This document shows, in pieces, positions 24,997 through 64,000 of a DNA stretch of 64,000 nt; within the stretch, counting starts at the first letter, position 1; the number at the start of each line of letters is the position of its first letter. The stretch spans positions 125,676 through 189,675 of the forward strand of contig JALVVN010000007.1 of NCBI GenBank assembly GCA_027023405.1. The letters are read 5' to 3'. Both the position numbers and the translations under genes were made by a program. The stretch is from Campylobacterales bacterium. Its GTDB lineage: Bacteria > Campylobacterota > Campylobacteria > Campylobacterales > QNZT01. The notes beneath the pieces were generated by a model. It was not told where the DNA came from. It saw only the letters and a program-made list of their open reading frames with translations, and ran no database searches.

Positions 24997-25582
24997 TCGC
25001 CTTCATAAATTCATTTATTTTCATTTTATCTTTTTTGCCTTTAGATTTCTCTACAGAACTACTCAGATCGACTCCATAAAAGCCAAAAGGAAGCACTTTG
25101 GCGATATTTTGTGCACTTAATCCACCTGCTAAAATGATTTTGGAGCAATCTACACCTTTAAACCAATTTAGATCAATTCGCTTTCCCTCACCACCGTAAC
25201 TCTCTACAAACGCATCAACAATGCGATAGTGATCTTTGTATTGAAAAATATCCTCTTGACTTCGAGCACGCACCACTCTTATGGTTGCAATCTCAACCTC
25301 TTCATAGAGTTTCGCCTCAGCTTCAAAGTGGATTTGCGCCAAAGAGATACCACTCTCTTGTGCGATTTGGTTGATCTGATCAGCGCTATGATTGACAAAG
25401 AGCCCTACCCGCTCTACAAACGGCGGGAGCTGTTCAATGATTGCTCGTGCTTCTAGGGGTGTAATATATCGCGGAGATTTTTTATAAAAAACAAAGCCCA
25501 ACGCATCAGCACCCGCCTCTATCGCATCCAACGCATCAGTGAGATTGGTAATCCCGCAAATCTTTACCCGTGTTCGCATCAC
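24977..25582 (-). CDS. trpF: Phosphoribosylanthranilate isomerase
   Basis: RVKICGITNLTDALDAIEAGADALGFVFYKKSPRYI; ILAGGLSAQNI; YGVDLSSSVEKSKGKKD. Confidence 0.93.
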   Translation of the reverse strand: MMRTRVKICGITNLTDALDAIEAGADALGFVFYKKSPRYITPLEARAIIEQLPPFVERVGLFVNHSADQINQIAQESGISLAQIHFEAEAKLYEEVEIATIRVVRARSQEDIFQYKDHYRIVDAFVESYGGEGKRIDLNWFKGVDCSKIILAGGLSAQNIAKVLPFGFYGVDLSSSVEKSKGKKDKMKINEFMKAIDSGSI

Positions 25583-26220
25583 ACTTTTAAACGCTCAATC
25601 GCTTTGGCATAATCGCTATTACCATAGACATAGCTTCCTGCTACCACCACATCAACACCGGCATCTTTGAGTGCGTGAATATTTTTATCACTCACACCGC
25701 CATCCACTTCAATCAGCGTCTTGGCACCTCTTTTATCGATGAGATCACGCAATCGCTTCGCCTTTTCCAAAACCGTAGGAATAAACTTTTGCCCGCCAAA
25801 ACCGGGATTGACACTCATCAACAGCACCATATCCAAATCATCAATAATATACTCCAAATCCTCCAATCCACGATGCGGATTCAACACCACACAAGGAGAG
25901 ATATCATATGAACGGATCTTTTGGATCAGCCGATGCACATGCTTCTCCTCTTCAATATGGAAGGAGAGATATTTGGGCTTCAATGGGGCAAAGAGATCGA
26001 CAAAAAAGCTGTTATTTTGCACCATCAAGTGAATATCCAACGGTTTTGTTGCCGCCTTTGCCACCGCTTCTACAACTACAGGACCGATAGTGAGATTGGG
26101 TACAAAGTGACCATCCATCACATCCACATGCACCAAATCACACCCCGCATTACAAATCGCGCGCACCTCTTGATCTAAATGCCCAAAATCTGCTGAAAGA
26201 ATACTCGGAGCTACTAACAC
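25579..26220 (-). CDS. rpe: Ribulose-phosphate 3-epimerase
   Basis: VAPSILSADFGHL, LVHVDVMDGHFVPNLTIGP, MSVNPGFGGQKFI, EVDGGVSDKN. Confidence 0.95.
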   Translation of the reverse strand: MLVAPSILSADFGHLDQEVRAICNAGCDLVHVDVMDGHFVPNLTIGPVVVEAVAKAATKPLDIHLMVQNNSFFVDLFAPLKPKYLSFHIEEEKHVHRLIQKIRSYDISPCVVLNPHRGLEDLEYIIDDLDMVLLMSVNPGFGGQKFIPTVLEKAKRLRDLIDKRGAKTLIEVDGGVSDKNIHALKDAGVDVVVAGSYVYGNSDYAKAIERLKV

Positions 26221-26281: not shown

Positions 26282-26525
26282 GCCCTCGTTGCTTCGCTTC
26301 GCTCCGACTACTCGGCTTGGGACCCTAAAAACGACAAGAAATTGTCGTTTTCTTAACTCTCTCCCGCCCTCGTTGCTTCGCTTCGCTCCGACTACTCGGG
26401 TTGGGACCCTAAAAACGACAAGAAATTGTCGTTTTCTTAACTCTCTCCCGCCCTCGTTGCTTCGCTTCGCTCCGACTACTCGGGTTCCGACCCTAAAAAC
26501 GACAAGAAATTGTCGTTTTCTTAAC
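26282..26525. repeat. Three tandem copies of an 84-bp unit, each with a perfect 10-bp hairpin
   Basis: Copies start at 26282, 26366 and 26450 (third slightly short). Unit GCCCTCGTTGCTTCGCTTCGCTCCGACTACTCGG(G/C)TTGGGACCCTAAAAACGACAAGAAATTGTCGTTTTCTTAACTCTCTCCC. Confidence 0.95.
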
Positions 26526-26530
26526 GGGTC

Positions 26531-27751
26531 TCACATATTAGCCATGTTCATGGAGAAGATGGGGAGGAGCATGGCAATAACGATGAAGCCGATGGTGGCA
26601 CCGACAAAGAGGATCAACATCGGTTCCATTAGTGAGAGAAAGACATTGATCTTATCTCGGTTTTCGCTAAAGTAGAGATCAGCAAGGTTCTCCATGACCA
26701 TTGGAACTTCACTAGTCTCCTCTCCTAGTGCAATCGCTTGAATAAAAGATTTATCGACATGTTTGCCGTGTTTAGCAAGTGATGAGGAGAACTTTTTGCC
26801 CTCGACCACATCTTTGCTAGCACTCTCAAACTCCTTTTTCATCACTTGGTTATCCAAGATACCGCTTGAGAGTTTCACCGCATGCACAAAGGTCACACCG
26901 CTTCGGGTCAAGACAGAGGTGATATAAGAGAAGCGCGCAAGCTCAAAAGTGCGGATAATCTTTCCAAAGAGAGGGAGTCGAAGCATCGTACTATCAAAGA
27001 GATAGCGAAATCTTGGGCTCTTTTTGAGAAAATAGCTAAAAAGAAGCGATCCGATTATAATCACAGCGACAATATGCAACCAATAGTGCCCCAAAAAATC
27101 ACCGGATGCAATGACAAATTTGGTAATTCCCGGTAACTCTTGCTTGAGCTGTGCAAACATTTTGGTGATCTTGGGCACAACAGTCGTGAGCATAAAAGCG
27201 ACCATAAAGATCGAGATGACGACGATCACCATCGGGTAAATAAGTGCCTGCTTCACCTGTCCGGAGACTTTATCCTGCTCCTCCACAAAACGCGCCATCT
27301 CAAAGAGTACCTCACTCATGCTCCCACTCTCTTCCGCTACCTTGATCGACTGCTTGTAAAAAGAGGGTAATGCAATAATATGTTGCGAATCGAGCGCGGC
27401 ATAAAAGCTATTTCCCTCATTCATACTACTCTCAAGCGAATTGAGAAAATCGACCATTATGCCATCATCTTCATATTGAGACTTCGCAAGCTTGATAACA
27501 TTGACAATCGGAATACCCGATCGCAAATAGATAGCAATATTTTTGGAGAATTGGGCGAGCTGTTTGGAGGTGAGTTTATGCGATCGTTTGAAACTCAAAC
27601 GACTGAGCAATCCTTCACCGCTCTCAGTAATACTATCAAAGAGAATCCCTTTGGCTTTGAGTTTGCGTTTGGCTTCATCTAAATCATTCGCTTCGATTCT
27701 CGCCTTGACCCGCTTACCGTGCGAATCATATCCACTATACTTAAAAATCAT
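26531..27751 (-). CDS. gspF: Type II secretion/competence inner membrane protein F
   Basis: Two GspF domains; LTSKQLAQFSKNIAIYLRSGIPIV; TRSGVTFVHAVKLSSGI; MEPMLILFVGATIGFIVIAMLLPIFSMNMAN. Confidence 0.92.
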   Translation of the reverse strand: MIFKYSGYDSHGKRVKARIEANDLDEAKRKLKAKGILFDSITESGEGLLSRLSFKRSHKLTSKQLAQFSKNIAIYLRSGIPIVNVIKLAKSQYEDDGIMVDFLNSLESSMNEGNSFYAALDSQHIIALPSFYKQSIKVAEESGSMSEVLFEMARFVEEQDKVSGQVKQALIYPMVIVVISIFMVAFMLTTVVPKITKMFAQLKQELPGITKFVIASGDFLGHYWLHIVAVIIIGSLLFSYFLKKSPRFRYLFDSTMLRLPLFGKIIRTFELARFSYITSVLTRSGVTFVHAVKLSSGILDNQVMKKEFESASKDVVEGKKFSSSLAKHGKHVDKSFIQAIALGEETSEVPMVMENLADLYFSENRDKINVFLSLMEPMLILFVGATIGFIVIAMLLPIFSMNMANM

Positions 27752-63724: not shown

Positions 63725-63801
63725 TGGCGCACCCTACAGGAGTCGAACCTGTGACCTTCGGTACCGCAAACCGATGCTCTATCCAGCTGAGCTAAGGGCG
63801 C
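63725..63801 (-). tRNA. tRNA-Arg(GCG), CCA encoded
   Basis: Reverse complement GCGCCCTTAGCTCAGCTGGATAGAGCATCGGTTTGCGGTACCGAAGGTCACAGGTTCGACTCCTGTAGGGTGCGCCA folds as cloverleaf; anticodon loop TTGCGGT. Confidence 0.93.
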
Positions 63802-63883
63802 AAATGAGTTACGATTGTATAGAAAATGGACTTAAAGAACCTCATAAAAATAAAAGTAAATGAGATACATTAGAAGAACAAAC

Positions 63884-64000
63884 GAACCGGCAGCGACCTA
63901 CATTCCCACACCAGTAAGGAGCAGTATTATCGGCGATGAGGGGCTTAGCTTCTTGGTTCGAAATGGAGCAAGGCGTTTCCCCCTCTCTATAGCCACCGGA
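63884..64000 (-). rRNA. rrf: 5S rRNA, nearly complete at right window edge
   Basis: Reverse complement TCCGGTGGCTATAGAGAGGGGGAAACGCCTTGCTCCATTTCGAACCAAGAAGCTAAGCCCCTCATCGCCGATAATACTGCTCCTTACTGGTGTGGGAATGTAGGTCGCTGCCGG. Confidence 0.93.

Follow-up and report, generated by a model that had tools for sequence, protein, structure and literature searches.

The space between gspF (26531-27751; Pfam T2SSF, 4.3e-48) and the next gene downstream, rpe (25579-26220; Pfam Ribul_P_3_epim, 1.2e-79), in the 64,000-nt window (the whole stretch of DNA analysed here) contains a tandem array at 26282-26525, with a period of 84 bp, 2.9 copies and 98% match by Tandem Repeats Finder. Both genes are on the minus strand, as an earlier note made from the sequence had it, and the 84-bp repeats with perfect hairpins which that note reported are real: a 10-bp hairpin, AAAACGACAA-GAAA-TTGTCGTTTT, is perfect in 3 of 3 copies. 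The minus strand, which is the sense strand of gspF, is the biologically oriented strand of the repeat, and on it the unit is an element of ~83 nt, GAG...GGC. The gspF stop codon is TGA at 26531-26533 and the GAG of the element begins at 26532, so copy 1 starts within the stop codon. On both strands the array folds better than shuffles (z -4.1 and -5.9).

The gene-proximal unit (unit 1, 26450-26532, minus strand) is intact; it is delimited by its sequence, by a covariance model match of 75.3 bits at 26484-26535 and by the empty gspF orthologs considered below, and its first two bases complete the gspF stop. Unit 2 (26366-26449, 49.9 bits), in which the 5′ arm of the outer stem is replaced by GGGAGAGA, and unit 3 (26282-26365, 49.8 bits) are tandem copies on the same strand, delimited by sequence and Tandem Repeats Finder. 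The outer stem, P1, pairs GACCC (26530-26526) with GGGTC (26493-26489) in unit 1, spans 26489-26530 as judged by the fold and family covariation, and encloses a GTTAAG/TA internal loop and the 10-bp hairpin P2 (26496-26519; its loop, TTTC in minus-strand reading, is the GAAA of the plus strand), for which sequence, fold and covariation agree. The P2 hairpins of units 2 and 3, evident from sequence and fold, lie at 26412-26435 and 26328-26351. A further hairpin region of unit 1, P3 (26450-26484), folds with the architecture of class A, CC-nnA-stem...stem-GAn-GG, and holds GCGAAGC. The standard P1 is kept only in the gene-proximal unit; in the fold of units 2 and 3 a different 5′ arm, GGGA, pairs with TCCC on the 3′ side. 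Differences between the copies had been placed at CGG(C/G)TT(GG/CC)GACC, and the GG/CC difference there is real; since GGGA/TCCC replaces GACCC/GGGTC with pairing kept, it looks like a compensatory P1 change. In other genomes, the inner units of arrays likewise carry a stereotyped 5′ arm (TGGGAGAACC) and not that of the first unit.

A loose DNA search of relatives yielded shorter matches in many genera, and their side-by-side alignment gives a common arrangement when read on the upstream gene's strand: GAG-nnnC - GTTAAG - AAAACGACAA-nnnC-TTGTCGTTTT - TA - Gnnn-C - G(G/A/C)AACC, then the second hairpin. The parts are those of unit 1, i.e. P1, the conserved internal loop GTTAAG/TA, P2 and P3. 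In a seed of 15 sequences, 9 of the 15 base pairs show two-sided changes with pairing kept; 98.7% of cells are paired, and none of 500 shuffles reached as high a covariation. With 82 distinct sequences 14 of the 15 pairs covary (this alignment was fitted to the covariance model and so leans towards it), and sliding one strand by a single base abolishes the signal. Of 59 class-A copies, 50 show the P3 architecture, which only 6.5% of shuffles do, and its stems occur in many different complementary versions, which is also covariation. The GAAA cap, pointed out earlier, is indeed present in all three copies at this locus, but is not the conserved loop of the family: the apical loop of P2 is CTGC in 101 of 128 copies, so that GAAA is a local loop rather than a conserved GNRA tetraloop. 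P2 pairs are 98.4% Watson-Crick and ~1% G-T, with a slight excess of G-T over A-C (13 vs 4). We infer that such pairing fits a palindrome kept as DNA rather than a typical RNA stem. DNA-specific C-GNA-G triloops are enriched in P3 (12 in 108 versus about 2 expected), which is a suggestive but weak pointer to DNA folding.

Covariance model matches occur in 133 of the order's 299 genomes and in 51 of 81 genera, with up to 21 copies per genome. The earlier note had proposed searching the whole genome and its relatives for the unit. The exact 84-bp unit has no other occurrence in this genome; two divergent family members are present in it (G000, C44:33058-33109 and C12:2639-2689), making 3 loci in total, and others are spread across the order. 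The array is thus not the single locus without homologues that the note had set out as contrary evidence. The exact core pattern is found in 26 stretches among 84,980 species genomes, all in Campylobacterales records (Sulfurovum, Sulfurimonas, Sulfuricurvum, Sulfurospirillum and other Campylobacterales among those named) except for one contig in a Caldisericaceae MAG, which is probably misbinned. Viral contigs lack the exact pattern, the whole 84-bp unit has no match in plasmids, and in phages it has only weak matches (E 0.07-0.8) that reveal no source. Rfam gives nothing at gathering score in the window and nothing up to E = 10 over the array.

Tandem pairs and triples are common in many genomes, with spacings of about 51, about 80-86 or 93-138 bp, and copy number varies between orthologous loci. 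For one such locus in two Sulfurovum genomes there are three matches in one (L111) and two in the other (L122), and at another Sulfurovum locus at least two units (L115) are set against one (L286). Copies also lie within rRNA operons, either in the interval from tRNA-Ala to 23S or immediately ahead of 16S. The former position is seen at L127:909-1259, with identical copies, in G069 and at L131 in G038; in both genomes the element is followed by a degenerate 3′ half of tRNA-Ala, GGTCACCGGaag...GGTAGACTCCACCA. (In the window itself, 63725-64000, which is the contig end, has tRNA-Arg and 5S rRNA, as is usual where an assembly breaks at an rRNA operon.) At three further loci (L134 and L135 in G024, L141 in G198) a duplicated 3′ fragment of a nearby tRNA-Asp gene (TGGCGCGGTGGACGGGACTCGAA) precedes the element, and these loci look as if units had been stacked at the tRNA end. 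At L130 (G069) and L080 (G038) the element adjoins repeats, AATCCCCTTaAGATCGGGTCCAATAGGTAAAT, resembling the edge of a CRISPR-like array.

Each of the family's 21 other genomes has gspF, in every case without the element. Wherever the 3′ end of these relatives is visible in the alignment, the stop codon is TAA or TAG; the ATG-TGA ending of gspF is unique to this genome within the family, and its GA is that of the element, the T being native. The suggestion in the earlier note of recent amplification is supported by this absence from relatives. The sequence to the right of the array (AAAAATTCTAATCATAATC) resembles the post-stop sequence of a congener (L224), and because of this resemblance the native TAA of gspF appears to have been split T^AA without duplication. 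Empty and filled sites can also be matched elsewhere, and there the boundary is the same. G162 has GAGTGG-TAATATGC where G152 and G211 have GAGTGG-T|GAG...GGC|AAAGCAT, and in the reverse direction G152 and G211 have an empty ATGTAR where G162 has ATGT|GAG. Splitting of T^AR with no apparent target duplication is seen both at gspF and at the S4 locus, but the right junctions have diverged. At the S2 locus G152 and G277 carry different elements, and G162 and G142 carry none. Presence is patchy, most orthologs of host genes being without the element.

Among 144 distinct copies, the upstream ORF ends exactly at the T|GA of the element in 27, and in none is there an upstream stop codon 10-46 nt before the element. 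When the analysis was rerun with longer flanks, all 25 scored stop-site copies followed ATG (18) or TGG (7). About 14 different genes are concerned, groEL among them. Intergenic copies follow the ATGT/TGGT rule less strictly than those at stop codons. Overall the 5′ flank is TGT, GGT or GAT, or else NGG, before GA. The base 5′ of the insertion is T where the 3′ joint is AAC and G where it is CAC; it can thus extend P1 by one pair across the GA/GxA step. The pairing proposed is T3 with A51 in class A and G3 with C51 in class B, and RNAfold closes the extended P1 helix at one locus (L112). These are hints, short of proof, that pairing is how the element recognises its target. A plain sequence-specific target plus tolerance was also considered, and fails to account for the limited frequency of intergenic copies. 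A third variant is found in two genomes (L017, L198) at the 3′ end of a gene reading ...EWE-stop, probably guaA; it supplies TAA, not TGA, and has an AT-rich P1 and, at L198, a P3 with CATGTGTAAG...GAACACG.

The order-wide and previously unnamed REP-like family is real, and this locus is a lineage-specific insertion and tandem triplication of its element. We consider it probable that the array represents a REP-like, non-autonomous, palindromic mobile element of Campylobacterales which entered the gspF stop and was then triplicated. By that account one element would have inserted between the T and the AA or AG of the stop with no visible target-site duplication, its 5′ GA would have rebuilt a TGA stop, and tandem triplication would have followed in this lineage. 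The active form would most likely be a folded single DNA strand (P1-P2 plus P3), recognised next to a short target ([A/T][T/G]GT) by a nuclease or transposase acting in trans. The analysis shows the family, its structure, the empty and filled sites, the placement at stop codons and the varying number of tandem units, whereas a DNA rather than RNA form, transposition by an enzyme in trans and persistence as a selfish element with no role for the host are inferred; its presence probably amounts to a near-neutral 3′-UTR structure from the host's side. Among the options raised in the earlier note, that of a REP-like mobile or structural repeat fares best and is supported: the family is dispersed, multi-copy and palindromic, its copies lie at the 3′ ends of genes, and orthologous sites may have or lack one. 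The REP-associated Y1 transposase which that note thought worth looking for did not emerge. There is no Y1/RAYT transposase in this genome at E <= 0.001, and presence of the element is not associated with presence of Y1 across the 299 genomes (69/64/74/92, p = 0.24). Scanning of 27 Y1 loci with R1 gave one element, a distant match, and no parental IS sharing the ends of the element was found among these 27; nor is a transposase evident among the genes between nearby element pairs (L201, L082, L044). Also against the mobile reading are the 1-21 copies per genome, which is low for REPs, and the looser ATGT/TGGT rule of intergenic copies, for which a simple sequence-specific target gives no explanation; nor was a transposition event itself observed. 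A bolder proposal, to which only a small probability can be given, is that the family is a new class of short two-hairpin mobile DNA which finds its insertion site through pairing of its internal AAC(C)/CAC(G) joint with the bases immediately 5′ of that site and which moves without a RAYT, hence landing in ATG-T and TGG-T stops and rewriting TAA/TAG to TGA across the order.

The position of copies exactly at stop codons and on the sense strand, together with conservation of structure across families, could instead reflect function. The element would then be an RNA feature of 3′ ends (a stabiliser of mRNA 3′ ends or a terminator), selected at gene ends and exchanged by recombination. The slight G-T excess in P2 is in keeping with this, as is the occurrence at some empty orthologous sites of palindromic terminator-like hairpins overlapping the stop, e.g. 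ATGTAATTTG-AAAAG-CAAATTACAT. However, G-T pairs are very rare, presence is patchy with most host-gene orthologs empty, and P2 is not followed by a U run in 44% of copies (T run <=2 in 56/128). The terminator scan calls none at the array, and copies inside rRNA operons must, from their position, be transcribed through. The stacked bidirectional terminator offered by the earlier note is not supported, in view of the scan, the T runs and the rRNA-operon copies; a terminator role is unlikely, and a functional RNA element of the wider kind is doubtful. (Empty gene ends in this group, as at L275, L281, L288 and L289, often have terminator-like palindromes whose stem includes the stop codon.) Hairpins of the type A-stem-T are frequent where a genome is AT-rich, and independent, non-homologous terminators could on that count have converged on a similar form. 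More is shared than hairpin convergence would give, namely the unpaired GTTAAG/TA loop, CTGC as apical loop in 101/128, conservation of the 3′ joint and the architecture of P3, and the covariation is lost in slid-column controls; covariance and joint conservation already disfavour convergence, which is very improbable.

Tandem accumulation at one spot, a folded two-arm structure and the presence of copies beside tRNA genes whose 3′ fragments are duplicated would suit sites recognised by a site-specific recombinase, resembling either integron attC or dif/Xer; the tandem units would then be stacked sites. attC sites carry RYYYAAC/GTTRRRY boxes; inspection reveals no such boxes here, and no cassette ORFs lie between units. 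The element is unlike the difH and dif consensus sequences published for epsilonproteobacteria, which are described as single sites near the terminus of each chromosome. Identity with dif/Xer or attC was rejected on sequence, and a recombinase site in general is improbable. Tandem structured repeats between genes also recall the antitoxin arrays of type III toxin-antitoxin systems or a source of small RNAs. The neighbours here are gspF and rpe, with no toxin gene, single copies are dispersed at unrelated genes and, as mentioned, Rfam has no match; such an array is most improbable. The preferred reading is still that of a REP-like mobile element.

No published description of the family was found in the literature searched, an incomplete search which included the available part of PMC3733652 (covering Sulfurovum NBC37-1). 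The short palindromic elements of Campylobacterales are here defined as a family spanning the order, and they show that TAA/TAG stops have been replaced by TGA repeatedly in nature. The sites of insertion, stop codons after Met or Trp, can be read precisely and compared with matched empty sites, so that movement of REP-like DNA without a RAYT is directly testable in culturable Sulfurovum.

Known REPs offer the closest comparison. As described in PMC2817692 and PMC3733652, Pseudomonas GTAG-1 REPs have an unpaired 5′ tag, GA, a stem and a 3′ GAA-like tail, enterobacterial (GTAG-3) REPs have TAAG before the inner stem of a two-stage stem, and REP termini can supply the stop codon of an upstream ORF. 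The present family similarly consists of dispersed, multi-copy, extragenic palindromes at 3′ gene ends (133/299 genomes; 3 loci here), its terminus can supply the upstream stop, and it has a tag followed by GA, stem and GAA-like tail, as well as TAAG (here GTTAAG) before the inner stem of a two-stage stem. A terminal unpaired GTAG or close variant is absent: the tag is [A/T][T/G]GT or NNGG. Other differences are the ~83-nt unit with a second conserved hairpin (P3), the 1-21 copies per genome without RAYT association, and the frequency of head-to-tail tandem arrays, head-tail dimers being rare among REPs. Because of its tag and lack of a RAYT link, the family is filed as a variant and not as a GTAG REP, though it works like a REP. 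CGTC REPs, reported in Sulfurovum sp. NBC37-1, are intergenic palindromes with a CGTC tag, a single 8-9 bp stem starting AT, a CCA tail and no dedicated transposase known, according to PMC3733652. That strain (G211) carries the present family as well, with 13 copies. By inspection the unit lacks the CGTC tag, the 8-9 bp AT-starting stem and the CCA tail, though there may be some overlap with the REPs reported for NBC37-1.

In the way they work, MITEs and PATEs (palindrome-associated IS200/IS605 derivatives) are also alike, being short and non-autonomous with two subterminal hairpins and, as far as the diverged right junctions here allow comparison, no visible target duplication; the present element differs in having no parental IS found to share its ends among the 27 Y1 loci and no Y1 transposase in this genome. 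Several class-B copies of this genus (L146:550-794 in G001; L107 and L108 on C44 and C12 of this genome; L202) lie centrally within a MITE-like element, a unit of ~245 bp with inverted repeats at its ends, CCCAAATTTTGCATTA...TAATGCAAATTTTGGG. In G001, the class-B copies at L042 and L043 are in another inverted-repeat frame (AAAAACTGTT / AGTTAAAAACTC...GAGTTTTTAACT...AACAGTTTTT). As some copies in the genus are carried in larger inverted-repeat units, part of the spread may be passive. The inverted repeat of the ~245-bp MITE-like unit is also present between gspF and rpe in the congener G001 (L226).
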